DNA of 64,000 bases from Rhodospirillales bacterium (lineage in GTDB: Bacteria > Pseudomonadota > Alphaproteobacteria > Rhodospirillales > Casp-alpha2): contig JAEPMA010000003.1 of NCBI GenBank assembly GCA_017644185.1, positions 124,001 through 188,000 of the forward strand. Direction: 5' to 3'. The position numbers were made by a program, and so were the translations under genes. The notes under the pieces are model-generated. The model worked only from the letters and a program-made list of their open reading frames with translations, did not search any database and was not told where the DNA came from. Below are positions 15,042 to 60,882 of this stretch, piece after piece. Positions within the stretch are counted from its first letter, which is position 1; each line of letters opens with the position of its first letter.

Positions 15042-15046
15042 GCCGG

Positions 15047-16258: not shown

Positions 16259-16290
16259 TTACCTGATCTCGGCATGGACGGAAGGCAGGA

Positions 16291-41593: not shown

Positions 41594-41697
41594 TTTATTG
41601 GATTCCCTAAGTGTTCGTTCTTATTTTATCGGCCCGCTTTTGCGGTGCTCGGGATCGAATTTACAGCGATCACCCGACAGGGGCAATCCGGCCACCC

Positions 41698-42609
41698 TTA
41701 TCCGTTACCCTTCGCCTTGATCGCGTCATATCGCGCGAGCAGCCGTTCCGCACGGACGCCGACCGGCACGTCGATCATCTTGCCGTCGACCTTGATCGCC
41801 CCCAGGCCCTGCTTTTCCGCTTCCGCGTAAGCCTCGACGACGCGCCGGGCGTGATCGACTTCTTCATCGGTGGGGGTGAACTCCTCGTTGACGATCGGGA
41901 TTCCGGACGGGTGGATGACACTTGCCGCCTCGAAGCCGAACTTGCGCGAGCGCCGGACGTTGGCGCGAAAACCTTCCGTGTCCGTGTAGTCGGCGACGGT
42001 GCCGATAAAACCCATCGCCATGATGCCCGCCGCCTTGGCGGCGATGGCGACCTGCTGCTTCGGCATCATGAGCGTGTCGGAATCGGGAACCATCCCTACG
42101 TCCATGGCGAAATCCTCGCCCCCCAAACTCATCCCAACAATACGCGAGCTGGCGCGGCCGACGGCGTGGGCGCGGAAGTACGCATCCGCCGTTTCGATCA
42201 TCGCCACCAATTTGACGTCGCCCGCCGGACGGCCGGCTTCGGCTTCGACCTCGGCGACCAGCTCCGCGACCAGCTTCATGTGGCCTGCCCCGTCGACCTT
42301 GGTCACGAACAACGCCTTCGCCCCCGCCTTCACCGCGGCGTCGACGTCGGCCACCATGTGACGAAGGGGACGGTTGATGCGGACCGTCGCGTCGGCCCCC
42401 GACTGCGAGACCGATTTGACCGCATCGGCCAGCATGCCGCGGGCGCGCGGGCGTTCCTGTTCGGGGACGCTGTCCTCGAGATCGAGGATGATCGCATCGG
42501 CACCGCGCGTGTGCGCTTTTGAGATAAATTTCTCGTTGTTGGCGGGGACGTACAGCAATGACCGCCACACGAGGTCGGCGCTGCCTCTTAGTCCTTTGTT
42601 TTTGCTCAT
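41698..42609 (-). CDS. HpcH/HpaI-family CoA ester lyase
   Basis: 303 residues from the ATG at 42607-42609 with GGGA upstream. Citrate lyase beta / malyl-CoA lyase fold: RSLLYVPANNEKFISKA, DAIILDLEDSVP, VRINRP, LVAMIETADAYFRA with the metal Glu, GGEDFAMDVGM and VIHPSGIPIVN. It may cleave a malyl-CoA, citramalyl-CoA or related ester, or hydrolyse one. It precedes the dioxygenase by 104 nt on the same strand; it is plausible as the downstream step of that pathway. Confidence 0.9.
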   Translation of the reverse strand: MSKNKGLRGSADLVWRSLLYVPANNEKFISKAHTRGADAIILDLEDSVPEQERPRARGMLADAVKSVSQSGADATVRINRPLRHMVADVDAAVKAGAKALFVTKVDGAGHMKLVAELVAEVEAEAGRPAGDVKLVAMIETADAYFRAHAVGRASSRIVGMSLGGEDFAMDVGMVPDSDTLMMPKQQVAIAAKAAGIMAMGFIGTVADYTDTEGFRANVRRSRKFGFEAASVIHPSGIPIVNEEFTPTDEEVDHARRVVEAYAEAEKQGLGAIKVDGKMIDVPVGVRAERLLARYDAIKAKGNG

Positions 42610-42800
42610 GATGTTCCCTTCGTTTCGCGCGCCCGTGTCCCCGGGCTGACGGCATCGGTATACCCGTATGGACAACGGGCGTGGAAATGCATACGACGAC
42701 GGCAACGGTACGGTCGGTACCGGGATCAATCAAGGGAATGGCGGGCATAGGTCCGCCGTCGCCTGAAAGCAACACCGCCCCTTGGGGACGCCGGCGGCAG

Positions 42801-43331
42801 ATGACGAAAGACGTATGCAACGTGACCACGATTGAAGCTATCCGCGCACTGACCGACAATCCCAGGCTTCTCGAGTTCGCCGAATTCGTGCTCGACGCGG
42901 CGCAGGGAAAACCCTTCCCCGACTATAAAAGCATCGACCTGATGGATATCGCGCCGTTGGTCCGTTTCGTGTGGGCCATCGATTTCTCGAACGGGATCGG
43001 CGACCGCCCGAAGTTCGTGTTCTCCGGCACCCAGGTCGACGAGCATTACGGGATGAACATCACCGGCAAGTGCTTCGAGGAAATCTACGTCGAGCCCGAT
43101 TTCGACAAAGCGGTCACCGGCAACTATTACCAGGTCTACGCCCAGAAAAAAGTCGCCTACACCTGGCGCCGCGTGCACTATTTCGACGAATTCATCGAAC
43201 GTTACAAATCGGCCGAGGCGATCACGTTCCCGTGCTCGACCAACGGTGTCGACATCAATTACGGTCTCGGCTTCATCGAATATTCGCCAACGGCGAAAGG
43301 CCCCGACGAAAAAGTCTTCAAGCTGCTCTGA
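42801..43331 (+). CDS. PAS-domain protein (PAS_5 type), alphaproteobacterial family
   Basis: 176 residues from the ATG at 42801; a longer frame to 42681 overlaps the divergent lyase leader and is less likely. The style is that of small single-domain PAS proteins: LLEFAEFVLDAAQGKPFPDYKSIDL, FVWAIDFSNGIGDRPKFVFSGTQVDEHYGMNITG and YFDEFIERYKSAEAITFPCS. No output domain. Such proteins are frequent in Rhodospirillales and of unknown role. It converges with the TauE/SafE gene, 4 nt apart. Confidence 0.75.
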   Translation: MTKDVCNVTTIEAIRALTDNPRLLEFAEFVLDAAQGKPFPDYKSIDLMDIAPLVRFVWAIDFSNGIGDRPKFVFSGTQVDEHYGMNITGKCFEEIYVEPDFDKAVTGNYYQVYAQKKVAYTWRRVHYFDEFIERYKSAEAITFPCSTNGVDINYGLGFIEYSPTAKGPDEKVFKLL

Positions 43332-43335
43332 CGGC

Positions 43336-44106
43336 TCAGACGACACCCATCCCGGAAAGCCCGTCCCAGATCAGCTTGACCCCGGCGAAAAACAACAACG
43401 CGTAACAGATCCGATAGAACGTCTCGCCGTCGATGACGCGGACCAGCTTCCACCCCAGCCAGACGCCGACCGGCACCATCGGCATCAGGATCAGGCTCGT
43501 CGTCAGGTTTTCGGTCGAAAACTGGCCAAGCCACAGATACGGCCAGATCTTCACCTGGTTGACGACGAAGAAAAAGAACACCTGCGTCGCGACGAAGACC
43601 CGCTTATCGAGCCGCTGCGGCAGCAGATACATTTTAACCGGCCCACCGCCGGCGTGCGCGATGGTACTGGTATAGCCGGCCAGCGCCCCGCAGAAGACAC
43701 CGAACCAGCGGCCGGCGCGGCTGTCGGCGTTGATCGGGGTCTGTTGCAGGAAGTACGTCAGCGAAAAGATCAGCGAAAATCCGCCCAGGATCAGCCGGAT
43801 CATGTTGTCGTCGACGTGGCGGAAGGTGAGCGCGCCGATGGCGATACCGATGATGGACCCGGGCAGAAGCGCGATCAGGTTGCCCTTATGAAAGTCGCGG
43901 CGATAGCCCCAGATATTGAAGATGTCGATCACACAGAGGATCGGCAACATGATCGCCGCCGCCGCGACGGGCGATATGAAGACCGCCATCAGGGGGACCG
44001 ACAACTGTCCCAGGCCGCCGCCGAGGCCGCTTTTGGATATGCCCGTAATCAGGACGGCGAACAGCGCCACCGCCAGGAACAGGGGCTCGGGGAAAGTTTC
44101 GAACAA
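43336..44106 (-). CDS. TauE/SafE-family sulfite/organo-acid exporter
   Basis: 256 residues, about eight membrane spans. TauE/SafE signatures: AVLITGISKSGLGGGLGQLSVPLM and the later mirrored copy GYTSTIAHAGGGPVKMYLLP. Members export sulfite, sulfoacetate or related acids. Lying near a TauD-type oxygenase operon it could release sulfite from a sulfonate pathway, but it is separated from that operon by the oppositely oriented PAS gene. Confidence 0.88.
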   Translation of the reverse strand: MFETFPEPLFLAVALFAVLITGISKSGLGGGLGQLSVPLMAVFISPVAAAAIMLPILCVIDIFNIWGYRRDFHKGNLIALLPGSIIGIAIGALTFRHVDDNMIRLILGGFSLIFSLTYFLQQTPINADSRAGRWFGVFCGALAGYTSTIAHAGGGPVKMYLLPQRLDKRVFVATQVFFFFVVNQVKIWPYLWLGQFSTENLTTSLILMPMVPVGVWLGWKLVRVIDGETFYRICYALLFFAGVKLIWDGLSGMGVV

Positions 44107-47448: not shown

Positions 47449-47835
47449 TCAGAACAAGGACGACTGCGAGATGATCCCGTTCCGCAGGTTCTGGATCCAG
47501 CCGTTGTAGTTGGAGTGAATCTCGGTTCCCGTGTAGTTCAGGTTCGTGCTGTCGCGGTACATGATGCTGAATTCCTTCTGATTGAACGTCACGTCGACGA
47601 TGGCGACGTGCGAACGGATCGGAAGGGTCGCAAGAATCTTACCCGGTTCCGTGGTCTTCATCTGCCAGCCCAAAGCGGCCCCCGCGCGCTTGACGGCGGA
47701 ATCGGCGGCTTCAAGCGACGGCGCGTCCTTGGTGAACGGCGCGTTGACGACATTGAAGACCGGGGCCGAGCGGCAGGATACGGTGGCGACGGCAACCAGA
47801 ACGATTAAGGCGAAGTGCGTTGCGAAACGCTTCAT
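47449..47835 (-). CDS. Putative lipoprotein, 128 aa
   Basis: Leader FALIVLVAVATVSC gives a plausible lipobox (Cys near residue 21). The mature domain has alternating strands (SHVAIVDVTFNQKEFSIMYRDSTNLNY) and an Asn/Tyr-rich end (TEIHSNYNGWIQNLRNGI). Not a named family I recognise; comparable proteins are annotated as hypothetical lipoproteins. Lies 72 nt after the pigment-type operon end. Confidence 0.7.
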   Translation of the reverse strand: MKRFATHFALIVLVAVATVSCRSAPVFNVVNAPFTKDAPSLEAADSAVKRAGAALGWQMKTTEPGKILATLPIRSHVAIVDVTFNQKEFSIMYRDSTNLNYTGTEIHSNYNGWIQNLRNGIISQSSLF

Positions 47836-47906: not shown

Positions 47907-48653
47907 TTATTCCCCGGGTTCGCCGGAACGGAGGTATCGGATCAGACCGGGAATGTTCATGCCGCGCGACAACAACTTCACCGCCACCATCAACACGATG
48001 TGCGTGATATCGGCGACCGGGCGGAAGTGACTTGGGCGGAAGGTCTCCGCCCCGTAGAGCGCCGGAATGCGTACGTCGCGGATCGGCGCCCCGGCCCACG
48101 ACGCCAGGATCAGAAGTTCGCTCTCGAGCACGAAACCCTGTCTCGCGCACTTGCCCAGGTCGAGCCGCCTTAAAACCGATGCCGGGTAATACCGGAAGCC
48201 GCTCTGGCTGTCGGCGATCCGCTGCCCTGCCGCCCAGGATATCCAGAAATTCGCGACCTTGTTGGCGCGCAGTCTCGATTTCGGAAATCTCTCCGTATCC
48301 CAGAGCCGCGAACCGACAATGATGGCGTTCTGGTCTTCCAACCCCTTACCCGCGACACGGGCAATATCGTCGGTGCGATGCTGGCCGTCCCCATCGAGGG
48401 TCACGACCCCCTCCACCCCCTCGATCGCGAGCGCTTCCCCGAACCCCTTTAAAAGCGCCGCCGCTTTCCCTTGATTGACGTCAAGGTCGATGCGCCGGAC
48501 CGCTAATCCGTCGAGCGCGGCACCCGTTCCATCCGTCGAGCCGTCGTTGACCACGATCACATGGGGTGTCGTTTCGAGCGCCCCTTCGGCGATGTCACGG
48601 ATCGTCGCCGCTTCGTTATAGGCCGGGATCACCAGGGCGATACGGTGCTCCAC
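47907..48653 (-). CDS. Family 2 glycosyltransferase, last gene of the polyene-type operon
   Basis: 248 residues with a GTG start. GT-A fold: LVIPAYNEAATIRDI, VVNDGSTDGTGAAL, VVTLDGDGQHRTDDI as the metal-binding motif, and SQSGFRYYPAS. Resembles polyprenyl-phosphate sugar transferases. Aryl polyene clusters often include a family 2 glycosyltransferase, sometimes fused to the acyltransferase that is separate here. It follows the ketoreductase by 10 nt, so it probably belongs to the operon. Confidence 0.87.
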   Translation of the reverse strand: MEHRIALVIPAYNEAATIRDIAEGALETTPHVIVVNDGSTDGTGAALDGLAVRRIDLDVNQGKAAALLKGFGEALAIEGVEGVVTLDGDGQHRTDDIARVAGKGLEDQNAIIVGSRLWDTERFPKSRLRANKVANFWISWAAGQRIADSQSGFRYYPASVLRRLDLGKCARQGFVLESELLILASWAGAPIRDVRIPALYGAETFRPSHFRPVADITHIVLMVAVKLLSRGMNIPGLIRYLRSGEPGE

Positions 48654-48663
48654 ATCAGCCCCG

Positions 48664-49398
48664 TCAGCTCAGGCCGCCGTCGACGGCGATGATCTGGCCG
48701 GTGACGTAGGACGCGTTTTCGGATGTAAGAAACGACACCACCTCCGCCACTTCCTCGATCCGCCCGGCCCGCTTCATCGGTACGAACGATTTGATCTCGT
48801 CCTCGGCGAAGGCGCCGTCGCCGATCCGGTTTTCGAGGATCCCCGGCGCCACGGCATTGACCGTGATCCCCTTCGACGCGATCTCGCGCGATAACGATTT
48901 GACCGCGCCGTGCAGCCCCGCCTTGGCGGCGGCATAATTGCTCTGGCCACGATTGCCCATGATCCCCGACACCGACGAGACGGCGACAACGCGGCCCCAG
49001 CGCGAGCGGATCATCGGCATCAGGAGCGGGCGCGCGACGTTGAAGAAACCGTTGAGTGCGACCTCGATCGGCAGGCGCCACTGCTCATCCGTCATCCCCG
49101 CCATCGGGGCATCCATATTGACGCCGGCGTTACTGACGAGAATCTGCACCGGACCGTCTTTCAGAATGCCGTCGAGAGCCCCCGCCGCCGCGTCATGATC
49201 GGTCACGTCGAAGGCAACCGCCGAGGCCGCCCCGCCATCCTCAATGAGTTGATCCGCGAGCGCGGCGGCCGCATCGGGATCGCTGTTCGCATGCAGGATG
49301 ACATGACAACCATCGCGGGCAAGCGCGCGGGCGATCCCGGCACCGAGCATACCGCTCGCGCCCGTCACCAGGGCGCGTTTGCGTTCGGTGTCACTCAT
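48664..49398 (-). CDS. 3-ketoacyl-ACP reductase (ApeQ/FabG-like)
   Basis: 244 residues, short-chain dehydrogenase. NADP-binding GASGMLGAGIA, ASN-type SNAGVNMDAP, catalytic Ser141-Ser142 in AVSSVSG, Tyr155 and Lys159 in NYAAAKAG. Would reduce the beta-keto group in each polyene extension round. Starts inside the dehydratase gene's stop (ATGA), so it is tightly coupled. Confidence 0.9.
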   Translation of the reverse strand: MSDTERKRALVTGASGMLGAGIARALARDGCHVILHANSDPDAAAALADQLIEDGGAASAVAFDVTDHDAAAGALDGILKDGPVQILVSNAGVNMDAPMAGMTDEQWRLPIEVALNGFFNVARPLLMPMIRSRWGRVVAVSSVSGIMGNRGQSNYAAAKAGLHGAVKSLSREIASKGITVNAVAPGILENRIGDGAFAEDEIKSFVPMKRAGRIEEVAEVVSFLTSENASYVTGQIIAVDGGLS

Positions 49399-49826
49399 GA
49401 CGCCCCCTCCAGCGCGATCGTGATGCGCCCGGCGGCGAGTTCGGTTTCGGATGCGCCGTCGGCATGGATGCGGAACCGGTACATGGAGGATTGCGCGTTC
49501 GACGCAACACAGTCTGCCTCGATCACCAGATCAGCGGCCACCTGGTCGAGATAGTCGACCGCCGCCGTCAGATCGCGAACCGCGACCAGCAGACCGTCGC
49601 CCCGGCGCCCGGTCAGCCCGCCGTGCACCGCCGCCGCCTGTCCCCCGTATTCGATGGCCGACGAAGCGGGCAATCCCGTTTCGTTGCGCAGCGGATTGTC
49701 CGGTCTCAGATGAGATGCCGTACGGCAGATAATACTGTCCTCGTCCCAGTCCGTGACGCCGTCGATCAGGACCATATTCCCCGCGTGCGGGATCAGTTCT
49801 TCAATGTCGATCTCTGCGTTCGTCAA
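49395..49826 (-). CDS. 3-hydroxyacyl-ACP dehydratase (ApeP-like hotdog)
   Basis: 143 residues with a TTG start overlapping the previous stop. LIPHAGNMVLIDG places a catalytic His at 14, and SAIEYGGQAAAVHGGL matches the second half of the ApeP-type hotdog active site. It would remove water to give the trans double bond of each polyene unit. A second hotdog dehydratase is fused to the ligase of this cluster. Confidence 0.88.
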   Translation of the reverse strand: MTNAEIDIEELIPHAGNMVLIDGVTDWDEDSIICRTASHLRPDNPLRNETGLPASSAIEYGGQAAAVHGGLTGRRGDGLLVAVRDLTAAVDYLDQVAADLVIEADCVASNAQSSMYRFRIHADGASETELAAGRITIALEGAS

Positions 49827-50623
49827 CTGGATATCCGAACCTTAATCCCGTAGCCATTGACGCCGGCGGCGCATACCACATCTTTGGGGCTGGGCGAGTT
49901 GTTTGCAATCGCCGCGAGCACGGGGAGGGCGCGTCCCGCCGTGGTGCCGTCGAAATACCGCTGCAGCGCCCGGTCGCCGGGAACGGTCTCGGGCGACCCC
50001 GCCGCGCCCCGGATCTCGAGCGATGCCACCGATCCCGCCCCCGCACCGGCCGGTGTCAGCAGCAGCCCTACCGCCATCGCACAATCCATCGGACACATGT
50101 CGCCGAGCAGCCCCGGCATCGGGTGATCCGACACCACCAACACGGTCGGCCGGCGTTCCGACATCACCATCGTGACCGCCCGTAATAATCCCGCCCCGAA
50201 GGTCGCCCCGCCGGCGGCGATGGAAATTGAGGTGTGTTGATTCCCCGTCCCGATGCTCCAATACCCGGCGGCGGCGTTATGGACGGAGTTATGGAACTGC
50301 GTCGGAGACACCAGACGGTCGGGCCGGCTGAGCGCGGTCAGAATGCCGTCGCACACGTCCCCGTCGCCGACGGCACTCCCGAATACCGAAGCGACATCGT
50401 CAAGGGGATAGCCCGCCATCCGGCAGGCATCGACCGCGGCGTTGAGGGCAAGGCGCAACGACGGACTAGTGCGGCGCCGTTCACGGGGCGCCAGAATATC
50501 GGGCGCGCTTAGAACCAGATCGCCTTCCGGCCATGGTTCGTCACCCCTGAGGACCGGACGCATGTCGTCCCAACCGGAAATGGCGGGCGCGATGACGGAT
50601 ATACCTGAAACGGATACCTTCAC
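49823..50623 (-). CDS. Chain-length-factor-like ketosynthase partner (ApeC-like), no active Cys
   Basis: 266 residues from a GTG start. It aligns by eye with ketosynthases (SPSLRLALNAAVDACRMAG, DDVASVFGSAVGDGD, FHNSVHNAAAGYWSI) but where the nucleophilic Cys would be it reads ISIAAGGATFG, with Ala near 137. It is therefore a beta-ketoacyl synthase-like protein of the Ketoacyl-synt_2 type that probably dimerises with the true ketosynthase upstream and controls chain length, as the aryl polyene ApeO-ApeC pair does. Confidence 0.85.
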   Translation of the reverse strand: MKVSVSGISVIAPAISGWDDMRPVLRGDEPWPEGDLVLSAPDILAPRERRRTSPSLRLALNAAVDACRMAGYPLDDVASVFGSAVGDGDVCDGILTALSRPDRLVSPTQFHNSVHNAAAGYWSIGTGNQHTSISIAAGGATFGAGLLRAVTMVMSERRPTVLVVSDHPMPGLLGDMCPMDCAMAVGLLLTPAGAGAGSVASLEIRGAAGSPETVPGDRALQRYFDGTTAGRALPVLAAIANNSPSPKDVVCAAGVNGYGIKVRISS

Positions 50624-50624
50624 C

Positions 50625-51806
50625 TCATCCCCTTCCCGAAAAAATCAGGACGCAGTTGTTGCCGCCGAAGCCGAAATTATTGGTCATGACGTGGGTGAGA
50701 TCGGCCTGGATCGTTTCGCCGACGATCCGGCATTTCAATTCCGGATCGGCAGTTTGCAGATTCAGGTTTGCCGGGATGAACCCCTCCGTCAGGGCCGTCA
50801 CCGTCACCGCGGCTTCGAGGATGCCCGCACCCCCAAGAGTGTGGCCGCTGAACCCCTTGGTCGAACTGCAAGGCGTCCCTTCCCCGAGCACCGCCGCAAT
50901 CGCCATGTCCTCGACCTTGTCGTTATAGACGCTTCCCGTGCCGTGCATGTTGACGTAGTCGATGTCTTTAGATGTCAGCCCTGCCGTTTCGAGGGCCGAT
51001 CGCATCGCCGCGATCGCGCCCTTTCCTTCCGGGTGCGGCGACGACATGTGGTAGGCGTCGGAACTCTCCCCGATCCCCGAAAGCACGACCCGGTCGTTCG
51101 TATCTGCCCGCGTCAACAACGCGAAGCCGCCCGCCTCGCCGATCGATATCCCGTCTCGGTCACGGTCGTTGGGCCGGCACGGGCCGGGAGACAGCAACTG
51201 CAGGGCGTTGAAGCCCCGGATCGACGTTTCACAGAGACTATCGACACCCCCCACGATAACAGCATCGCATAACCCGGCCGCGATCAACCGCGCGCCGTCG
51301 CTGAAACTTCTGGTGCTCGACGAGCACGCCGTCGAAATCGTGTAGCAGGGCCCTTTCGCGCCCAATCTTTCGGCCACGAACCGGCTGAGCGACGAAAGAT
51401 CGTGGGTGGTCGAAAAATTGGACGGCGTTGAAAGCGGATGGCCGCGCGCATGGTCCGCATAGACCCGCTCCGTCGAACCGATCCCGGATGTGCTGGTGCC
51501 GAGCACCACGCCGACCCGGTCGGCGCCGAAATCCCGAACAGCGGATGCCGCTTCGTCTGAAAAGCCGTCCTCGCCCAGCGCCATCTCGGCCAGTCTGTTG
51601 TTGCGGCAATCGAACACCTCGAAGCCTTCGGGGAACACCACGGTGTCGAGATCTGCAACCCGGCCGACGGACGTCGTTAAGGGGGCTTCCGGGCACTCAT
51701 ATGATACGAGGCCCGTCCGCTCGTCCGTCAACGCCGCCCGCATTGCCGTCATGCCGCGGCCGAGCGCGGAGGTACAGGTCATACATTTGACGGCAATGCT
51801 ATCCAT
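50625..51806 (-). CDS. Beta-ketoacyl-ACP synthase (ApeO-like)
   Basis: 393 residues, condensing enzyme of the FabF family. Complete Cys-His-His triad: Cys161 in STACSSS, His288 in NMHGTGS and His322 in FSGHTLGG, with Lys317. Would extend the ACP-bound chain with malonyl units. One base overlap with the MMPL gene and a 1-nt gap to the chain-length-factor-like gene. Confidence 0.93.
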   Translation of the reverse strand: MDSIAVKCMTCTSALGRGMTAMRAALTDERTGLVSYECPEAPLTTSVGRVADLDTVVFPEGFEVFDCRNNRLAEMALGEDGFSDEAASAVRDFGADRVGVVLGTSTSGIGSTERVYADHARGHPLSTPSNFSTTHDLSSLSRFVAERLGAKGPCYTISTACSSSTRSFSDGARLIAAGLCDAVIVGGVDSLCETSIRGFNALQLLSPGPCRPNDRDRDGISIGEAGGFALLTRADTNDRVVLSGIGESSDAYHMSSPHPEGKGAIAAMRSALETAGLTSKDIDYVNMHGTGSVYNDKVEDMAIAAVLGEGTPCSSTKGFSGHTLGGAGILEAAVTVTALTEGFIPANLNLQTADPELKCRIVGETIQADLTHVMTNNFGFGGNNCVLIFSGRG

Positions 51807-54070
51807 CAGGACGGCGCCCCTTCGTCACCCCGGACGATGGTAACGAGGAACGACACCGCCGCCCCCAACGCCACCGTCAGACCGATGTTGTGCAGCATCG
51901 GAATCTTGGACGTCGCGAGAACGGCGAACACCACGAATGTCGAGACGAAACAAAGCATGACGGAACCGAAGCTGTGCTCTCCTGCCGCCGGGCCTTCGCG
52001 GTAACCGGCGAAAAACAGTTCATAGTCGACGCCAATGCTGACGACCAGCACCAGCGCGAGCAAATGAAAAAAGCTGAGCGGCGTGCCCGAAAGAACCAGC
52101 ACCGCGACGGTCACCGCGACCGCGATGACAGGCACACGGGCAACACGTAATCCCGCGCGCGCCCCCCGCCGGCCGACGATCACGATCACGAAACCGCAGA
52201 CCGCGCCGACCAGCAGCAGCTCAAGCCCCTCGGTCCGGTAATCGGCGACTATACCGGACGCCATTTCGCGCAGGTTGATAAGGGTCGCTCCCTCGACGTC
52301 GAACGTCTGAATACCGATGGGAGGGACCAGTTGTATCGCGTTGACCCAGCCGTCTGCCGCCTCGACCGGCGTACTCATCATAAGTGTCAGATCGTGGAGC
52401 GCCGGGACGTCGAGAGAAACCGGGCCGTGCCGTTTCGCCGCCAAGATATCGTCGAAAAACGGGTCGAACGCATCCGGCTTCACCGGCAAGCCCACCAACA
52501 CTTGATTCAATCTGGTGCGGAGTTCGCCGATATCAGGGATCCGGTCGAGCCGCGCCTGTTGGATCGAAGGCGGTGGTACAATGTCGGTGATCGACAGATA
52601 ACCGCCGAGCCGCCCTTCCTTCACCTGCTGTTCCAGCAGTTGCGACGCCCGCCACTGGTTTTTCATCACCTCATCCCGGCTGCCGCCCCGGATCAATATC
52701 ATATGGCTGATGTCGGGCATGCCGAGACGTGTGCGCAATTCACGGTCGAGCCGTATCTCTGTTTCGCTGGCCATGCGCAGGTGCCGGATGTCGTCGTCCC
52801 AGAGCGCGTTGCCGGAGAACATGGCGGCGGCGAGCCCGGCAAGGGGAAGCGCATAAAACAGATACCGCACACCGCGCCTGAGACCGGGCCGGGCACGCAA
52901 TCCCGCCCACAAGAAACGCCCGGGTCTGAGGTCGAGGCCACGCTCGGGTAACGCGAGGGGTAACAGATATCGGCTGAACAGCACCGCGATGACGATGGCT
53001 GTCGCCGTCAGCGTGCCGATCTGGGCGAGACCCGGAAAGCTCGACTGCGACAGGATCACGAACCCGGCCAATGTCGTCGCCGCGCCGAGGATCATCACCG
53101 GGAACAGGCGGCGGGCGACGGCGTATCCGGCCTCGTCAGGACGCCGGAAGCTCGCCAGGTGGACGGGGTAGTCGACCGCGACACCGATCATCACCGACCC
53201 GAACGCGATGGCGACCCCGTGCACGCTGCCGAAAATCCAAGACGTCATAAGGATGCCGCCAATCAGCCCGAACCCGACAGGCAGAGCGATAGTGATGAGA
53301 ATGATGGGTGCGCGGAACGCCGCGAATAGGACGATGGCGACACCCACCGTGGCAAGCGCCGCCAGAAGTTGCATTTCCGAACGAATCCGTTCGCTCGCGT
53401 TCAAGGCGAAGAAACCGGGGCCGCTGAGCGTGACCAATACCCCCACGTCGTCGGCCGCGTCATATAATACGCGCCGGATTTCCGCATGCCCCGGAATGTC
53501 GTCGGCGCCGATGTTCAAAAACGCCAGCATCATGGTGCGCCCGGGCTTCTTCTGCCATGCTCCACCATCGCGCCGCATGCCGAACTGCCCGTCCCGCTCC
53601 ATGAGACCGAGGACACGACCGGTCGGATCGCGCGGGAAGACATCCCGGTAAAGCGGCCCCATTCCCGAGCCGAGCTTCTTCAACCAGGTTGCGATCTGCG
53701 CCTTCATCCGATCCGTGCTGAACTCGTCTTCGGCGAGATCGGGACCGAGGGTGTATCTGTGCGCGATAAGAAAGGACACCGCCTTGTCGTCCAATGCCAT
53801 CCCGTCCCGCAGCACCCACGTGACGGACGGGTGGTCGCCCAGTCTCGCCGCGATACGATCAGCGGCGGCGTCATTGCCGTTGACGGCGATCATCGCAACC
53901 CCGTCCGCGCGGGTCATGCGGTTGAACAGAAAATCTTCGGCCGCCCCCTGTTCTTCAGGGGTGAAAAACGACATGTCGGTGGAAATCGGCACATGACGGA
54001 CCGCCAACGCGCCAAGGACGATCAGCCCGATGAAGAACGGCAGCGCAAGGCGCCTGAGCATCTCATTCAT
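51806..54070 (-). CDS. MMPL-family lipid exporter (ApeM-like)
   Basis: 754 residues, about 12 membrane spans in two halves with large periplasmic domains (about 40-200 and 415-590). RND/MMPL features: GSVMIGVAVDYPVHLASF near the fourth span and VVSIGVDYELFFAGYREG in the second half, both carrying the proton-relay Asp-Tyr pair. It should move the finished lipid-linked polyene from the inner membrane outward. Overlaps the LolA-like gene by 8 nt. Confidence 0.92.
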   Translation of the reverse strand: MNEMLRRLALPFFIGLIVLGALAVRHVPISTDMSFFTPEEQGAAEDFLFNRMTRADGVAMIAVNGNDAAADRIAARLGDHPSVTWVLRDGMALDDKAVSFLIAHRYTLGPDLAEDEFSTDRMKAQIATWLKKLGSGMGPLYRDVFPRDPTGRVLGLMERDGQFGMRRDGGAWQKKPGRTMMLAFLNIGADDIPGHAEIRRVLYDAADDVGVLVTLSGPGFFALNASERIRSEMQLLAALATVGVAIVLFAAFRAPIILITIALPVGFGLIGGILMTSWIFGSVHGVAIAFGSVMIGVAVDYPVHLASFRRPDEAGYAVARRLFPVMILGAATTLAGFVILSQSSFPGLAQIGTLTATAIVIAVLFSRYLLPLALPERGLDLRPGRFLWAGLRARPGLRRGVRYLFYALPLAGLAAAMFSGNALWDDDIRHLRMASETEIRLDRELRTRLGMPDISHMILIRGGSRDEVMKNQWRASQLLEQQVKEGRLGGYLSITDIVPPPSIQQARLDRIPDIGELRTRLNQVLVGLPVKPDAFDPFFDDILAAKRHGPVSLDVPALHDLTLMMSTPVEAADGWVNAIQLVPPIGIQTFDVEGATLINLREMASGIVADYRTEGLELLLVGAVCGFVIVIVGRRGARAGLRVARVPVIAVAVTVAVLVLSGTPLSFFHLLALVLVVSIGVDYELFFAGYREGPAAGEHSFGSVMLCFVSTFVVFAVLATSKIPMLHNIGLTVALGAAVSFLVTIVRGDEGAPS

Positions 54071-54635
54071 GTTCGATTTGTATCACAGTCTTGTCGCCGT
54101 TCCGTTCGTCAATACGGATCTGGCGGACATCGCCACTGCGACCGTCCAGTGCGATCACACGCAAGTAGTCGCGGAGCACACCCTCGCGCGGCGTCATCGC
54201 GAGTTGCCACGCATTTTCGTCCCCGGATAGCTCAAGATCGAAAAGGTCCCGCAACGGCGCCATGTCGCCGCCGAGGATCGCGCGAAGCGTGACGACAAGC
54301 CCCCTTAGCATCGGGTTGCGGCCGCTGTCGAAGCGGGTTTCTGTTTTGTCCGCGTCGGTGTGAATGACCTGGTCGCCCCGCACCTCGAACGTTTCGGGAT
54401 CGGGGGCAGTGACGTTTTTCAACAAGACCCCGTCCTCAAACCGCATAACACCTTCCGAAAAAAGCGGCTGACTTAGATAGCTGATGTCACGGCGTTCGGT
54501 ATAGCGGACCTGATCGGACGTCCGCCCCTGCAGGGCCGCCGCCAGTTCGTCCAGCGTCCAGCCGGAAGCGGCGGCAGAGGTGGCACATGCCAGCACCAGC
54601 ATGACGGCCGAAAGCGTTCTAATCCCAGAAATCAT
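54063..54635 (-). CDS. LolA-like periplasmic lipid carrier (ApeL-like)
   Basis: 190 residues from the ATG at 54633-54635, which overlaps the acyltransferase stop by 17 nt. Signal peptide with LSAVMLVLACATSAAA. The mature part is the LolA beta barrel: RYTERRDISYLSQPLFSEGVMRFEDGVLL, and TPREGVLRDYLRVIALDG. Would carry the exported lipid across the periplasm, matching the LolA homologue of aryl polyene clusters. Confidence 0.85.
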   Translation of the reverse strand: MISGIRTLSAVMLVLACATSAAASGWTLDELAAALQGRTSDQVRYTERRDISYLSQPLFSEGVMRFEDGVLLKNVTAPDPETFEVRGDQVIHTDADKTETRFDSGRNPMLRGLVVTLRAILGGDMAPLRDLFDLELSGDENAWQLAMTPREGVLRDYLRVIALDGRSGDVRQIRIDERNGDKTVIQIEHE

Positions 54636-55518
54636 AAAAGTTAAACCAGTTATATGGCGCCTCGCGTGCCCATGCCTCAACGATGCCGATGTATGATTGC
54701 GCGAACAGGCGGCCTTTTTCGTGGTCCCGCGCACGCGCGCCGGTCTCGACCGGCAGTCTGCGGAGCTTCACCTTGTAACCCCTATTCCCATCGAACACCG
54801 CCGAAAAAACGACGACGGGGGCGCCGGTCACGGCTGCCAGCACCCAGGGCGCCGTGGCGATTTTCGCCGGCGCTCCCAGAAAGTCGACCTCGAAGGTCTT
54901 TTCACCCCGCGTCACCCGGTCGCCCAGGATACCTACCATCGCGCCGTCATTGAGGGCGTCGTTGACGCGGATCAGGCTGTCGGGCGGCCCGAGCGGGATG
55001 ATCTGTTCCTTGAACGCCGGGTTGATGGCGTCGAGCACCGCACTCACCGTACTGGCGTTGGCATCGTACATCAAAACCTTCAGGTCGCGGCTTTCCGCCG
55101 AGCGGGCCAGCGCGCGCATGGCATCGAAACTGCCGAAGTGCGCGCCGAGGAGGATCACACCGCGCCCGCCCTTTTGGGCGTCGTGAAGCTGGTCCAGCCC
55201 TTCCACCTCGATATCGAACAAATCGAACTTGTCTTCAAGAAAAAACACCCGGTCGAGGATCGTGCCGGCGAAGCAATGAAAATGCCGGAACACGTTGCGT
55301 CCCGCCGCCGGGCGGCCGAGAACGCGGTCCAGATAGCACCGTGAACTGCGCCGCGCGAACGGCGCGAAGAGAATAAAATAAAGGGTGATCGGATAGAGCA
55401 GCAACCGCGTCACCCGGCGTCCCGACACCAGCGCCAGCCACGCGATGAACTTGATCAGGTAGGCGCTGCCGCGCTCCTGGCGGCCCGTCCAGCTGGACAT
55501 TCTGGTGTTCGCGGTCAT
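54619..55518 (-). CDS. LpxL/HtrB-like acyltransferase
   Basis: 299 residues from the ATG at 55516-55518 (ATGA overlap with the ligase stop). HX4D catalytic motif HFGSFD in LLGAHFGSFDAMRAL, an N-terminal hydrophobic anchor (LLLYPITLYFILFAPFA), and C-terminal WFNFYDFWD. The family puts acyl groups on lipid A; in aryl polyene clusters a related domain loads the polyene on a glycerol- or sugar-linked lipid anchor. Confidence 0.88.
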   Translation of the reverse strand: MTANTRMSSWTGRQERGSAYLIKFIAWLALVSGRRVTRLLLYPITLYFILFAPFARRSSRCYLDRVLGRPAAGRNVFRHFHCFAGTILDRVFFLEDKFDLFDIEVEGLDQLHDAQKGGRGVILLGAHFGSFDAMRALARSAESRDLKVLMYDANASTVSAVLDAINPAFKEQIIPLGPPDSLIRVNDALNDGAMVGILGDRVTRGEKTFEVDFLGAPAKIATAPWVLAAVTGAPVVVFSAVFDGNRGYKVKLRRLPVETGARARDHEKGRLFAQSYIGIVEAWAREAPYNWFNFYDFWD

Positions 55519-57098
55519 GACGCTTTCCGGCGAACGGTCGCGCGCATCACCGGCCGCGTCCCGGCACGGCAAGTGATCTCGACGGTTTGGGCGGATTCCG
55601 ATGTCTCGACGGTGCAGTCCTCCCTGGCCCTCAACACGCCGGTGAACTTCACCGATTTGAGTGCCGAGGCGCTGCTTATACCAGCGGCGCGCAACGCATG
55701 ATCCAGAACCACGGCACCCGGCACGATCGGGTTCCCCGGAAAATGACCCGCCAGGGACGGATGATCGTCCGGGATCGAAAACATCCGATTTCGATCCGCC
55801 AGCATCCCCATCAAACCTGCGATATGCGGCTTGCCGACGCGGGTCTTGGGGATCTCGTCCAGCATGACGATCCTTCTCGGCACGAACGCCGGGGCGATAC
55901 GATGTCTCAACGCCCGGCGCACCTGATCCGTGTCCATCCCGGGTGCCACGGCGAAGGCCACCGGCCTCTGGGGACCGCGCCCGGCCGGATCAGCCTCCGG
56001 CATCACAAACACGCCGTCCCGAACGCCGTCAATCCGTCTAAGAGCCTGCGTCAACCCGGCGAGCGAGGCGCGCTTCCCTGCCACGTTAATCAGATCGTCC
56101 CCCCGCCCGACAAGATGAAACCCCGTCCCCGACGCTTCGATCATGTCGTCGATCGTCAAAGCCGCCGCCCGCCACGCCGACATCACGTTCATGCGCCGGT
56201 TCTCGAACGAGATTCTAAAGTCATCGCGCGGCGTGAAGACATCGTTTCTAGCCGGCTCGCGCGTACCGATCAGACCGGTCTCGGTTGTGCCGAACACCTC
56301 GATGACACGGGTTCGGAATTTCTTTTCAACCGCCTGAGCGAGGTCTGAATCGAGCGCGGTCGTCGCCGAAACCACGGCGTGGATAGGAGGTAGGATGACG
56401 TCTTCGCGGACCAGCAGATCGAGATGCAAGGGCGTGCTCACCAGCACCCGGTGACCCGCTACCATATTCAACGCCTCGGCGACGTTGGCGGCGAAAAACG
56501 GGCGGACGTCGTAAACGGCGAAATCCGGATTTGAAAGAGGGAGCATGACACCCGCCTCGAGCCCATACATGTGCTGTGGGGGGACGGTGCAAACCAAGGT
56601 CTTCATTTCACCGGGCGCGCCGATCATCCCGGCCCACTTTTCCGCGCCCTGATCCAGCATGGCGAAGGGATGGGTGTGACGGACGGGGGCACCGGTCGTC
56701 CCCGACGTGAACAGGCTGATCCCGGCACCCGCCGCACCGCCCCAATCAAGCGGCGCGGTATCCGCGGGTGCGTCCGCGACGAGGTGAATTTCGCGCATGC
56801 CCTTTAACCCGGACGTATCGTCCCCGGCACTCGAAAGGACGATCACGTCGCCTGTCTCAGCGATCACACTGTTGATCGCGGCAAATCCCGCATCGTTGGG
56901 AAGGACGATCCGAAGACCGGCGTGGCGGGCGGCGATGACGCTCGCCAGAAAATCGCCGAACCGTGAACAGAACGGCAGGATTGCCGGTTTTTCGTCCGCG
57001 AAGTTCAGCCCCTCCAAAAGCAGGCGCGCGCGGCCCGTGACCGCATCGCGGCTGATCGCGTGCCCATCCACACCGATGACGAGCGCCGGCGGCGTCAC
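55515..57098 (-). CDS. Acyl-AMP ligase fused to hotdog dehydratase (ApeH-ApeI-like)
   Basis: 527 residues from a GTG whose bases overlap the preceding stop (GTGA); the frame extends upstream only as a shadow. Residues about 1-430 are an AMP-binding enzyme: LFTSGTTGAPVRHTHP loop, EVFGTTETGLIGTR and GRGDDLINVAGKRASL. Residues about 435-527 are a FabA/FabZ-type hotdog, HPSLAGHFPGNPIVPG. It would activate the aromatic or acyl starter and also dehydrate. In reference aryl polyene clusters these are two genes, ApeH and ApeI. Confidence 0.88.
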   Translation of the reverse strand: MTPPALVIGVDGHAISRDAVTGRARLLLEGLNFADEKPAILPFCSRFGDFLASVIAARHAGLRIVLPNDAGFAAINSVIAETGDVIVLSSAGDDTSGLKGMREIHLVADAPADTAPLDWGGAAGAGISLFTSGTTGAPVRHTHPFAMLDQGAEKWAGMIGAPGEMKTLVCTVPPQHMYGLEAGVMLPLSNPDFAVYDVRPFFAANVAEALNMVAGHRVLVSTPLHLDLLVREDVILPPIHAVVSATTALDSDLAQAVEKKFRTRVIEVFGTTETGLIGTREPARNDVFTPRDDFRISFENRRMNVMSAWRAAALTIDDMIEASGTGFHLVGRGDDLINVAGKRASLAGLTQALRRIDGVRDGVFVMPEADPAGRGPQRPVAFAVAPGMDTDQVRRALRHRIAPAFVPRRIVMLDEIPKTRVGKPHIAGLMGMLADRNRMFSIPDDHPSLAGHFPGNPIVPGAVVLDHALRAAGISSASALKSVKFTGVLRAREDCTVETSESAQTVEITCRAGTRPVMRATVRRKAS

Positions 57099-57733
57099 GG
57101 CGACATCCAGAGATGGGGGCGTGACAATGTCTTCAGGGTCGTGAGGGGTGAGTTGTGCCCGAGATGGCGGAACCGGACCGAGCGGTAAGCGTGCTCCCCC
57201 AGAAACAACGCCACCGAAAACAGCGGCAGCCCGAGGTTCGCCACCCACGACCAGGTTTTGGGCGGAAAGATCAGCGCACTCACCGTCGCGACCAACGCCA
57301 ACGCCAGCATTGCGACGGTCCAGATGACGGTCAGGCGGCGGGTGTAAGATTCGAGCTCATCCGGGATATCGCCGCGCGCGATGCGGCTGAAGCGCCGGAT
57401 CAACGGCTCACGTCCCTTGACCAACGTGCGGCCGAATATCCAGGCGAGCCAAAGATGAATGAGGATCGGTAAGAGCGTCACCGCCATCGCCAGTTCGGCG
57501 TCGACATAAAGGGCCAGCCCCTGAAGTCCCAGCATGAAAGCGAGGATGAGCAATCCGGCAACGATCCCGCCACCCCCGAACGTCCCGTCGATCGCCCCCA
57601 GAACGACGCTCAGCGCCAGCCCGGATGCGAGCGCCGCCGGTGCGAACACAAGCTGATCGAAAACGATGAGGATATGTAAGAGGACGACCGATAACAGGGG
57701 CGCGGCAATACGTGCGACACGAACAACACCCAC
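57095..57733 (-). CDS. COG4648-type membrane protein (ApeG-like)
   Basis: 212 residues from a GTG with GGAGG seven bases upstream; the longer frame reads through the ACP gene. About six membrane spans (PLLSVVLLHILIVFDQLVF, GAIDGTFGGGGIVAGLLILAFMLGLQGLALYV, TVIWTVAMLALALVATVSALIF). Matches the predicted membrane protein found between ACP and ligase in aryl polyene clusters. Function there unknown. Confidence 0.8.
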   Translation of the reverse strand: MGVVRVARIAAPLLSVVLLHILIVFDQLVFAPAALASGLALSVVLGAIDGTFGGGGIVAGLLILAFMLGLQGLALYVDAELAMAVTLLPILIHLWLAWIFGRTLVKGREPLIRRFSRIARGDIPDELESYTRRLTVIWTVAMLALALVATVSALIFPPKTWSWVANLGLPLFSVALFLGEHAYRSVRFRHLGHNSPLTTLKTLSRPHLWMSP

Positions 57734-57752
57734 CTTTTCGCCTCCGCCCCGT

Positions 57753-58046
57753 CTATTGATTGCGTCGGCTCTCAATTGTCTCCGCAAGCTGACGCAGCGA
57801 GCCAAACACCTTGTCGATGTCAGGATCATCCGACTTGATCTGAAAACCGTAGCGCTGGGAAATCTCGAGCGAGAGTTCGAGCGCATCGATGGAATCGAGG
57901 CCCAGGCCTTCGTTGAACAAGGGCGCATCGAGGTCGATGTCGTCCGGCGCCACGTCCTCGAGATTGAGGACGTCGACAATCAATTCCGCAACTTCCTGGT
58001 GCACGGGAGTTTTCTCACTGCTCGCCATGGCTGACACCGATTGCAT
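57753..58046 (-). CDS. Acyl carrier protein of the polyene-type cluster
   Basis: 97 residues. Phosphopantetheine attachment at Ser52 in LGLDSIDALEL; four-helix ACP shape with acidic surface. First ATG (58044-58046) is kept, though an in-frame ATG at 58028 also works. It is the first gene of the leftward operon of eleven genes. Only this one ACP is visible here; reference aryl polyene clusters normally have two. Confidence 0.9.
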   Translation of the reverse strand: MQSVSAMASSEKTPVHQEVAELIVDVLNLEDVAPDDIDLDAPLFNEGLGLDSIDALELSLEISQRYGFQIKSDDPDIDKVFGSLRQLAETIESRRNQ

Positions 58047-58198
58047 GATTCAGCTACCCCCAAATGCCCCAATTACTTATATTTTTTGTTCCTCTTCACA
58101 TAATCTATGGCGAGGGATGCACATTGTTCAAGAGGTCGTTCACGCCCGGCACTATCCGCCACTGGATAAATGACCTGCAACGGCACCGGGCAAAATCG

Positions 58199-58837
58199 AT
58201 GCAGATCGACGGTTTCCTGATGCTGGTGTGCTCTGTCTTGGTTTTCGCGGGCTCCGGCGCGCTGACGTACCTGTTTTGCGTGATAATGGTGATCCGCACC
58301 GCACGCAATTCCGGCGCCATGACCTCGCCCGCCGACACCGCCGTGGTTTTGGGGGTGAACCTCAATCCGGACGGCACCTTGAAGAACGACTACATTGCTC
58401 GGCTTGAACGCGCCAAAGAGACCGATGCACGCGAAATCTGGGTGCTGGGCGGGGTGACGTCGACCACCGTAACCGAAAGCGAGGCCCGGGCGGGACGCGC
58501 CTGGCTCATCGAAAATTCGGTCCCTGACGATAAAATCAATATCGAGGAAGGCTCACGTCACACCCTTGAAAACCTCAGTCTGTTGCGGGATCAAACCCGG
58601 GCATCGCCAACGCGATTCGCCTTGATCAGCAATCGATATCACCTGGCAAGGGTTGGTTTAATGGCGTCCGGGCTGGGGATGGATTTTGTCCTCTGTGCCG
58701 CCGAAAATGAACCGGGCATTCGAGGCCGCGACTATCCGAAAGCGCTCGCCGAAGCGTTCTTCATCCACTGGTATTATACCGGCAAAGCCATCGCCCGTCT
58801 TTTAGGGCACAAGGGCATGCTGGCCCGAATCAGCTGA
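58199..58837 (+). CDS. YdcF-like (DUF218) membrane protein
   Basis: 212 residues from the ATG at 58199; an upstream in-frame ATG at 58064 is possible. One N-terminal span (FLMLVCSVLVFAGSGALTYLFCVI), then a DUF218 fold with VVLGVNLNPDGTLKNDYIARLE, VLGGVTSTTVTESEARAG, EGSRHTLENLSLL and LISNRYHLARV. Some members act in envelope lipid synthesis. It runs away from the ACP operon and its end overlaps the halogenase-like gene by 8 nt. Confidence 0.82.
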   Translation: MQIDGFLMLVCSVLVFAGSGALTYLFCVIMVIRTARNSGAMTSPADTAVVLGVNLNPDGTLKNDYIARLERAKETDAREIWVLGGVTSTTVTESEARAGRAWLIENSVPDDKINIEEGSRHTLENLSLLRDQTRASPTRFALISNRYHLARVGLMASGLGMDFVLCAAENEPGIRGRDYPKALAEAFFIHWYYTGKAIARLLGHKGMLARIS

Positions 58838-60122
58838 TCTTCTTATCAACCCCGAGCCCGAGCCCGTTTAACAGGTTCACGGCCGAAAACATCACGCGGA
58901 ACAGCATCAGGCGCGGCCACAACCGCGTCCGCCCATAGACGTCACCGGAAAGCACGGATATCACCGCCGCCTGAAGACCGAGACGTTGTGAGGGGTTCAT
59001 AAACAGAAACCGCATCGCCGGGTCCATGAAGCGGTAGATGAACCAGGAAAACCTGGAAATGCCCCGGTCCACCAGACGCTGATAATCCGCCATCGCCCTT
59101 GCCGCCTTTTTCGGGTCGGCGAGGCACGTATCGACCGCATCGGCGGCGTAATCGGCGCTCTGCATGGCGATGAACACCCCGCTTGAAAACACCGGGTCGA
59201 TGAAGGCGTAGGCATCGCCCACCATCAGATACCGGTCCCCGAAGATCCGGCGGGCGCGGTACGAGAAATTCCCGGCCGCGCGGGTTTCATCCAGGGGGCG
59301 GGCGCGCGCCATGCGTTTATCGACGTTGGGGCAGCGCTTGAACGACTGAACAAGGAAATCGTCGAGGGCGCCATCACGCGTCTTCAAGTATTCGGGCGCG
59401 CTCACCATGCCCACACTCATCCGGTCGTCATCCAACGGGATCATCCAGAACCAGCCGTGTTCGAACCAATAGATGCTGATGTTGCCGGCTTCTTCACCGT
59501 CACGGGCGGGCACGCCTGAAAAATGGTTGAAGACGGCGGCGCTGTTATGGCGCGGATCGCGGGCCTTGAGGCCGAGTTTGGAGGAAATGAAGGTGTCGCG
59601 GCCGGACGCGTCGATCAAATACCTGGCGGCCAGCTCTTCGGTCTTTTGATCGCCGTCCAAATTCTTCACCGTCACCGTCGCATGTTCGGACGAGATCCTG
59701 AAATCGAGGACTTCGGAACGCTCACGCACCTCGGCGCCCCTCGCACGGGCGTTATCCAGAAGAATTTTGTCGAACTCGGACCGTGTGACCTGAAACGCGC
59801 TGGGTTCATCGGGATGGATTGCACGGGCGAAATCGAAGACCGTGTGGCGGGCCGCCCCCGGCACGGAAAAATCCGCACCCTTCTTCTCGACGCCGATCTC
59901 GCGGACCTGATCGAAGACCCCAAGCTTGCGGAAGATCGGCACGTTCCGGGGGAGCAGCGATTCCCCGATGTGAAAGCGCGGATGCCTGCTTTTTTCGAGC
60001 ACCAGAACGCGCCGGCCCTTCATCGCCAGCAACGCCGCGACGGTACTCCCCGCGGGGCCGCCGCCGATCACGATCGCGTCGTAATCGGGGGAATTGGAAT
60101 CTGTTTCGACCGGGGTGCTCAA
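58830..60122 (-). CDS. Flavin-dependent halogenase-like FAD oxidoreductase
   Basis: 430 residues. FAD-binding GGGPAGST (about 20-27), HPRFHIGESLLPRN, a Lys pair (80-81) in EKKGADF at the place of the catalytic Lys of flavin halogenases, and the diagnostic WxWxIP at 224-229 (GWFWMIPL), then FIDPVFSSG (about 308-315). These are the marks of CndH-type flavin halogenases. Neighbouring polyene-type genes would fit a halogenated pigment, as brominated xanthomonadin. A plain reductase role cannot be excluded. Reads toward YdcF, convergent. Confidence 0.85.
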   Translation of the reverse strand: MSTPVETDSNSPDYDAIVIGGGPAGSTVAALLAMKGRRVLVLEKSRHPRFHIGESLLPRNVPIFRKLGVFDQVREIGVEKKGADFSVPGAARHTVFDFARAIHPDEPSAFQVTRSEFDKILLDNARARGAEVRERSEVLDFRISSEHATVTVKNLDGDQKTEELAARYLIDASGRDTFISSKLGLKARDPRHNSAAVFNHFSGVPARDGEEAGNISIYWFEHGWFWMIPLDDDRMSVGMVSAPEYLKTRDGALDDFLVQSFKRCPNVDKRMARARPLDETRAAGNFSYRARRIFGDRYLMVGDAYAFIDPVFSSGVFIAMQSADYAADAVDTCLADPKKAARAMADYQRLVDRGISRFSWFIYRFMDPAMRFLFMNPSQRLGLQAAVISVLSGDVYGRTRLWPRLMLFRVMFSAVNLLNGLGLGVDKKIS

Positions 60123-60504
60123 GTGATCCGTGTCCCTGCAAGACGGCTCGAGCCGCCGCGCTCACCATAACGGCGGCAAGGATGGAAACAACCCCTGGCG
60201 GGGAAGTGTGACTTAACGCATAACATGAGAATGGCATCCGCAGGAATCCAACACTTCGACGCTAACTTTAACGCATAAAATGAGAATGGATTAACACTAA
60301 GCGTGAGAAAATCTTCGAAATCTGACGCATAAAGCGAGAAAATCTTGGCGCGGAAATAACAACTTAAATTCAATGGCTTATAAAAGCGCCCGGTAACGAA
60401 TAAACTATTCAGACATCGAACAAATCCAGTTTAAACGTGAAGCCAACAAGCATTGACGTACAACCTTAAAAGCTGTTCGCCAACTCCATCAGCTGATTTA
60501 ATTC
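60123..60504. promoter_or_regulatory. AT-richer upstream region of the halogenase-like gene
   Basis: 382 nt without a gene. Base composition is AT-richer than the flanks. It contains four imperfect direct repeats (60214-60344, separate entry). It separates the halogenase-like gene from a Rap1a-like gene that reads the same way, so it should hold the former's promoter. Confidence 0.6.
60214..60344. repeat. Four imperfect direct repeats upstream of the halogenase-like gene
   Basis: Units of 22 nt at 60214-60235 and 60269-60290 differ at one base (TTAACGCATAA-C/A-ATGAGAATGG); weaker relatives lie at 60292-60313 and 60323-60344 and share GAGAAAATCTT. Starts are 55, 23 and 31 nt apart. They are 92 to 222 nt upstream of the gene. 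They resemble an iterated regulator-binding site. Confidence 0.7.
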
Positions 60505-60882
60505 TCAACCGTTACACGGCCAGCGCTGCGCGTATATCTCGGCTAGGGTCGCATGTGCTTCACGGTCGTGCTGGTCCGAGCGTGACTGCAATCTGGCAAT
60601 CCCGGCGATCACCAACTGAATGTCCGGCACCTCTTCGGGTATGCATGCTGCGAAGCCGTGGACCTTGTGATAGCCGAGAAGCTCCCGAACCTCACCAACG
60701 AAACGCTCGCAAGCAGCGAAGCGCCTTTCGCTTTCGTAGTCGCTCTCCGTCACCACGCACAGATTCAGAAAACGGTGGCCGTCGATACTCTCCGTTGCGC
60801 TGACCGGAGACGCGGTCAGCGCGACAAGAACCGTAAACGCAAAGCCGCTCCACCAGCGGTTTAAACCAAGTGTATAGGGCAT
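60505..60882 (-). CDS. Secreted Rap1a/Tai-like protein
   Basis: 125 residues from the ATG at 60880-60882 (GGAAGG at a good distance; ATG 60891 also possible). Signal peptide with FTVLVALTASPVSA. Mature pattern DGHRFLNLC, FAACERFVGEVRELL, FAACIPEEVPDIQL and AEIYAQRWPC matches the small Rap1a/Tai fold with four Cys. Rap1a and Tai are type VI immunity proteins, but most members in other bacteria are of unknown role. No type VI genes are nearby. Confidence 0.75.
   Translation of the reverse strand: MPYTLGLNRWWSGFAFTVLVALTASPVSATESIDGHRFLNLCVVTESDYESERRFAACERFVGEVRELLGYHKVHGFAACIPEEVPDIQLVIAGIARLQSRSDQHDREAHATLAEIYAQRWPCNG

Follow-up and report, generated by a model that had tools for sequence, protein, structure and literature searches.

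Aryl polyene (APE) and xanthomonadin-type pigments are yellow, membrane-bound and antioxidant. In a Rhodospirillales bacterium (assembly GCA_017644185.1), a 64,000-nucleotide stretch of contig JAEPMA010000003.1 (positions 124,001 to 188,000; hereafter the window) carries, at 47907-60122, a set of genes that an initial annotation read as an aryl polyene/xanthomonadin-like cluster without an ammonia lyase. Does such a gene set encode a working pigment pathway and, if so, what supplies its starter? We conclude that the locus is very probably a functional xanthomonadin-type APE cluster, with a product that we predict from sequence. The cluster is intact, its genes are under purifying selection and its linkage is conserved. 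This conclusion draws on profile and PDB relatives, homology to most of the E. coli Ape proteins, the position of the ketosynthase (KS) in a tree, synteny with a sister species (G005) and ratios of nonsynonymous to synonymous substitution (dN/dS). It draws also on a near-identical gene set in a Magnetovibrio metagenome-assembled genome (MAG) and in symbionts, and on the related ligase ArcT, which takes 3-hydroxybenzoate (3-HBA) in vitro (PMC3949708). An APE cluster without an ammonia lyase proves to be ordinary, which corrects the apparent anomaly. The starter question persists because a search of the genome also turned up none of the enzymes known to make hydroxybenzoate.

A predicted xanthomonadin-type core

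The operon core comprises eleven open reading frames (ORFs), all on the minus strand between 58046 and 47907. Given the start codons as chosen, seven of the ten junctions overlap by 1-17 nt (the acyltransferase and ligase genes by 4 nt) and the remaining three are spaced by 1, 10 and 19 nt, which bears out the leftward, mostly overlapping genes first described. Pfam and NCBIfam profiles bear out the functions then named, apart from the COG4648-type protein, which matches neither, and both dehydratase domains score under cut-off. That inventory omitted two genes within the same span, encoding a DUF218 protein (plus strand, 58064-58837) and a halogenase-like flavoprotein (minus strand, 58830-60122), and left a third, for an ApeA-family lipoprotein, outside it (minus strand, 47449-47835). 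The lipoprotein gene belongs to the cluster unit and the flavoprotein gene is counted into it, shifting the cluster boundaries to take in both; with the DUF218 gene, the set comes to 14 genes.

A KS and chain-length factor (CLF) of the ApeO-ApeC type, a feature of aryl polyene clusters, are present in the window by PDB matches and by phylogeny. The ApeO-like KS (50625-51806) exceeds the cut-off of the subfamily model NF006618 (481 bits vs 407), and its best PDB matches are 6qsp_A and 7f28_B. The ApeC-like CLF (49823-50623) matches PF13723 (Ketoacyl-synt_2); 7f28_A and 6qsp_B are its sole PDB matches. Both entries are ApeO-ApeC structures, from Xenorhabdus doucetiae and Acinetobacter (PMC8358021). 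In a tree of 39 rows, the window KS falls within a 35-row group (100/100) that holds E. coli ApeO, separate from ApeR and from two further KSs of its own genome. Other KSs of the genome lie on contig C29 and, 168 kb away, on C26. Its closest rows are those of G005 and the Magnetovibrio MAG; given one long row (L131) and three with odd composition, we rely on the broad split alone. A tblastn comparison with the E. coli cluster gave the same assignment, with the KS at 43% to ApeO vs 27% to ApeR. Together, the PDB matches, E. coli homologues and KS tree uphold the identification as an aryl polyene/xanthomonadin-like cluster. A match to general fatty-acid genes only, which by the initial annotation would have overturned its reading, was looked for and is rejected by the ApeO-ApeC PDB matches and the KS tree.

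The acyl carrier protein (ACP; 57753-58046) is ApeE-like, at 46% to E. coli ApeE vs 29% to ApeF by tblastn and 119.5 bits against NF006617 (cut-off 70). Only one ACP had been seen in the window, and a second was to be sought in the genome. A search with NF003757 found two matches, both below cut-off, one in the cluster and the other at C29:74574, next to a KS gene (C29:74878). A single dedicated ACP in the cluster fits this genome-wide result.

An ApeH-type ligase with an ApeE-type ACP, a further aryl polyene feature, is likewise present by sequence comparison. The 527-aa protein encoded at 55515-57098 appears to fuse an ApeH-like AMP ligase (PF00501, PF13193) to an ApeI-like hot-dog dehydratase: tblastn gives successive matches to the E. 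coli ApeH and ApeI regions, and the C-terminal domain is FabA-like, with a Pfam FabA match under cut-off. Named relatives were found with the ligase query, and 80 of at least 498 confirmed were kept. By a strict rule, seven of these 80 carry the fusion, and G005 brings the number to eight in the examined set of 82 loci. These loci extend at most 10 kb either side, many are ended by contig ends and 18 of the 82 show the ligase alone, so the absence of a gene from a relative is soft evidence. Acinetobacter ApeH has an N-terminal ligase part, and ApeH-ApeP is described as a dehydratase (PMC8358021); we read it as probably the same fusion, although neither "fused" nor "fusion" is used in that text.

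The ketoreductase (KR; 48664-49398), ApeQ/FabG-like and 42% to E. coli ApeQ, is supported by profiles and BLAST. The two dehydratase domains are assigned by position and relatives, and the second, an ApeP-like hot-dog protein (49395-49826), is 34-47% to the corresponding protein in 41 of the 80 named relatives. The translations show the catalytic motifs in place: the KS has Cys-His-His, the KR has S-Y-K, the ACP has its Ser site (GLDS), the ligase has a P-loop and a C-terminal Lys, with HFPG in its C-terminal hot-dog, and the acyltransferase has HX4D.

Export genes and an ApeA-family lipoprotein

Dedicated LolA/MMPL export genes plus an acyl- and a glycosyltransferase are also features of aryl polyene clusters, and Pfam and BLAST place all of them here. 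The ApeM-like MMPL/RND exporter (51806-54070) matches PF03176 and is 26% to the E. coli cluster; the ApeL-like, LolA-like periplasmic carrier (54063-54635, start chosen) matches PF19574 (LolA_3) at 67.7 bits. The GT2 glycosyltransferase (47907-48653; PF00535, 68.6 bits; 30% to the E. coli cluster) and the LpxL-type (lipid A-type) acyltransferase (54619-55518; PF03279, 57.9 bits) align side by side over E. coli ApeJ in tblastn, resembling its N- and C-terminal halves. The COG4648-type membrane protein (57095-57733) has no Pfam or NCBIfam match; it is ApeG-like, at 30% to the E. coli cluster and 25-45% to the corresponding protein in relatives.

The lipoprotein gene at 47449-47835 encodes 128 aa with a lipobox-like N-terminus. 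No Pfam or NCBIfam model matched it over cut-off in the copies searched. A hidden Markov model (HMM) built from the window protein and 11 relatives, with E. coli left out of the alignment, matched E. coli ApeA at 108.6 bits. In E. coli, loss of apeA is reported to alter how the lipid is attached. The family occurs in 15 of 150 genomes, this one included, and in all 15 it lies on the same contig as, and within about 8 kb of, the match to the ligase query. It is also seen in 12 of the 80 named loci, all 12 being rows of its profile or identical to one. One relative from the order (G128) has a related cluster without the gene, which counts against a strict linkage rule, but its contig stops inside the cluster. 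The gene has a dN/dS of 0.08 against G005. An AF2 model of the protein reached a pLDDT of 88.2, and a fold search with it returned nothing below E 0.001. KA1 domains headed the list and a BamCD entry came eighth; a likeness to KA1 or BamC is too weak for a claim.

A reduced gene set has precedents

We compared the window with the ape cluster of E. coli CFT073, using for the sequences another E. coli record (L144). BLAST and HMM searches found homologues of ApeA, C, E, G, H and I, J (as two genes), M, O and Q, and profiles added LolA-like and ApeP-like genes; neither cluster has an ammonia lyase. The window differs in that H and I are fused, J is split and halogenase-like and DUF218 genes are added. 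ApeB, ApeD, ApeK and ApeN had no match in the window, and ApeF and ApeR gave cross-matches only, ApeF at 38 bits on the single ACP and ApeR at 27% on the ApeO-like KS. Among these canonical E. coli-type extras, the search beyond the window covered ACPs and KSs. ApeK and ApeN homologues were seen in 3 of the 80 named loci, all among the 29 with a visible KS. In E. coli, strains mutated in apeA, B, K, R or F are reported to retain pigment or yield intermediates, and Table 1 of the same study lists no ammonia lyase, 4-hydroxybenzoate (4-HBA) coming from UbiC (PMC8253772).

The xanthomonadin-like cluster of Lysobacter, as described, has a single ACP and a XanB2 homologue but lacks a thioesterase, a methyltransferase and a halogenase (PMC3691225). 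It shares with the window a KS-CLF-like pair, an ACP, a KR, two dehydratases and a carrier. The Lysobacter loci in our own set show little besides the ligase and are uninformative. The initial annotation had taken the missing lyase, thioesterase, methyltransferase and second ACP as unusual, or as implying an unusual starter. We find no support for this, because an ammonia lyase is also absent from the E. coli set, and Lysobacter, as described, makes do with one ACP and neither of the other two enzymes.

A single ACP and a halogenase-like gene are features of xanthomonadin clusters, and both are present in the window. The flavoprotein (58830-60122; PF04820, 105.4 bits) is closest among PDB entries to 3e1t, a halogenase (209 bits), also matches 8zop, PltA and CmlS, and contains GxGxxG and WxWxIP strings. 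Twenty of the 80 named loci hold a match to it, 12 scoring at least 300 bits, and so do clusters of Azospirillum and Roseomonas. Halogenases are likewise described for the Xanthomonas and Azoarcus (arcuflavin) clusters (PMC3691225, PMC3949708). Because the Lysobacter cluster is reported without one, a halogenase is not strictly defining for the type. These xanthomonadin-type clusters (Lysobacter, Xanthomonas, Azoarcus) carry a XanB2-type chorismatase in the published descriptions, whereas none was found in the genome studied here. The window has ApeA; the sole Xanthomonas locus compared (L112) shows no ApeA, and no KS or CLF is visible in it.

The nearest named relatives and a PhyR-type sigma domain mark the host as an alphaproteobacterium. 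Among alphaproteobacterial clusters, those of Azospirillum ramasamyi (L145) and Roseomonas haemaphysalidis (L146) have an identical core order and the halogenase-like flavoprotein. They differ in having ligase and dehydratase unfused, no ApeA match, and methyltransferases annotated alongside. Acetobacteraceae APE clusters are described with an adenylate-forming protein and a probable halogenase (PMC8776678).

A second, E. coli-type APE cluster occurs within the same order, at L150 (G137) 2970-19856 and L152 (G105) 7029-19865. Like the window, these loci (L150-L152) have ApeA, an ACP, the ligase-dehydratase fusion and an exporter. They differ in matches to ApeD, E, F, K and N (and, in G137, ApeR), a fused glycosyltransferase-acyltransferase and a separate KS clade, and the G137 cluster includes a PF00221 lyase (504.8 bits). 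A gene-by-gene comparison of the window-type and E. coli-type lineages of the order should be avoided.

DarA/DarB-type resorcinol genes, as in flexirubin/dialkylresorcinol clusters, were not seen among the profiled window ORFs, to which that search was confined. Two flexirubin NCBIfam models matched under cut-off, on the KR (233.8 vs 340) and the LolA-like carrier (41.7 vs 125).

Conservation and distribution

All 14 genes are present in G005 in the same order at 79-97% identity, and dN/dS is 0.06-0.23 in every one of them, indicating purifying selection. The named relatives include Xanthomonas, Lysobacter, Variovorax, Acetobacteraceae and symbiont loci, several of which largely share the window's gene order. 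A nearly identical gene set was found in the Magnetovibrio MAG and in symbiont loci, and a scan of viral contigs with the ligase query found no relative. In another sister species (G001), DNA matching window positions 39498-44105 is followed by a GIY-YIG gene and the cluster is absent; the right flank has no match within the 40 kb covered, an arrangement that either gain or loss would fit. Clusters of similar make-up occur in symbionts of tubeworms (Escarpia, Lamellibrachia) and Bathymodiolus mussels (L049, L056, L059, L071, L111), which is odd because the pigment is thought to protect from light.

Several observations weigh against a functional xanthomonadin-type cluster. The ligase is remote from every solved enzyme (best PDB match, E 3e-8). 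The second dehydratase reaches 21.1 bits against PF22817, under the cut-off of 27, and its best PDB match, 6qsr_B, has an E of 0.4; neither it nor the LolA-like carrier has a BLAST match in the E. coli cluster. Within the genus the distribution is patchy: two of eight genomes carry the cluster, this one (G000) and G005, with ligases 100% and 79% identical. The others show weak ligase matches alone (E 2e-6 or worse), two of the eight genomes being less than 70% complete. Finally, the failure to find any known hydroxybenzoate-making enzyme makes the starter a guess.

The source of the starter

The genome is 99.87% complete. Its ammonia lyase search (PF00221, run in this genome among those of the order) returned nothing, with a control positive in 5 of 14 genomes; what had been noted for the window thus extends to the whole genome. 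A XanB2-type chorismatase, the other enzyme for which the initial annotation had proposed a genome search, was not found either: the FkbO/Hyg5/XanB2-type profile gave no match here, its control being under cut-off in 1 of 14. We extended the searches to 61 genomes of the order (G000-G036 and G048-G071), 37 of them with a completeness of 90% or more and a contamination of 5% or less. UbiC was found neither in the genome itself nor in any of the 61 by profile (control positive in E. coli alone of 14), and the same was true of an Rv2949c-like lyase (control positive in 3 of 14). Two of the 61, neither of them the genome in question, gave weak partial matches to the XanB2 profile (27-28 bits). Among 85 sequences examined, 25 contain XanB2-like genes, with none in the window, and a scan of 85 for the MIO motif returned three ASGDL strings, as expected by chance only.

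The missing hydroxybenzoate-supply genes are an apparent lineage-wide gap. A 4-HBA gap is not in itself new: a comparable one is in print for Hyphomicrobium, whose authors cannot explain how 4-HBA forms there (PMC12423496), and ubiC is missing from many genomes (PMC5615194). Contrary to such a gap, a review holds that bacteria have UbiC or XanB2 (PMC8854274). The genome does encode UbiA (372.7 bits), so a ring acid is presumably made. We consider 4- or 3-hydroxybenzoate from the lineage's own source the most likely starter. In vitro, the AMP ligase ArcT from the related arcuflavin cluster accepted 3-HBA and showed low specificity (PMC3949708). That the source is an enzyme yet to be discovered, which would also serve ubiquinone synthesis in this order without UbiC, XanB2 and Rv2949c-type lyases, is a tentative proposal to which we give close to even weight. 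If it is true, the pigment would act as a coloured reporter in the search for the enzyme: with a hydroxybenzoate-dependent visible pigment in such a lineage, the step that supplies 4-HBA to ubiquinone synthesis could be screened for by colour.

The same machinery might instead use benzoate, 4-aminobenzoate or a non-aromatic acid. The low specificity of ArcT in vitro would suit this, as would the failure to find UbiC, XanB2, an Rv2949c-like enzyme or an aromatic lyase in the genome, and reports cited in PMC12423496 that alphaproteobacterial UbiA accepts 4-aminobenzoate. We think it unlikely, given the UbiA gene and the ring acid it implies, and given that the nearest ligases found include xanthomonadin-type enzymes and that XanB2-like genes appear in 25 of the 85 sequences. 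More doubtful still is a starter scavenged from the environment as plant- or humus-derived hydroxybenzoate, with pigment made only when it is supplied. The failure to find a biosynthetic gene would suit this, but no uptake gene was recognised in the cluster, ubiquinone would meet an equal shortage and the sampled order is without the genes as well. It is highly improbable that these genes belong to general fatty-acid synthesis, or that the cluster is decayed and silent, as the single ACP, the unmatched ApeK, N, B and D and the mere cross-matches of ApeF and ApeR might suggest, since the best PDB matches of the KS-CLF pair are ApeO-ApeC, the genome's other KSs lie elsewhere, dN/dS is low and many relatives have the same reduced gene set.

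A proposed pathway

For a functional xanthomonadin-type cluster with a hydroxybenzoate starter, the genes suggest the following route. The ligase half of the fusion would adenylate a hydroxybenzoate-like acid and load it onto the single ApeE-type ACP. The KS-CLF pair would then elongate the starter with malonyl units, perhaps on the fatty-acid ACP, and the KR and two hot-dog dehydratases would introduce the conjugated double bonds. The flavoprotein may halogenate the polyene. The glycosyltransferase and acyltransferase could attach it to a glycolipid, and the exporter, LolA-like carrier and ApeA-type lipoprotein would deliver the pigment to the outer membrane.

Neighboring DUF218 gene and flanking DNA

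The DUF218 (YdcF/ElyC-like) protein encoded on the plus strand at 58064-58837 matches PF02698 at 53.4 bits. Its gene recurs beside such clusters, in 12 of the 80 named loci and in some on the opposite strand. A promoter and terminator scan of 57700-60600 found nothing beyond chance level. Upstream of the halogenase-like gene, ACGCATAANNNGAGAA occurs in three direct copies at 60216-60340, spaced by 54-55 bp, where 0.08 are expected by chance. Synteny with G005 ends near 60345, just past these copies, and in the G005 locus (L032 35-105 and 10987) a further ACGCATAANNNGAGAA copy adjoins an apparent insertion-sequence end. The copies are possibly the border of a mobile element.

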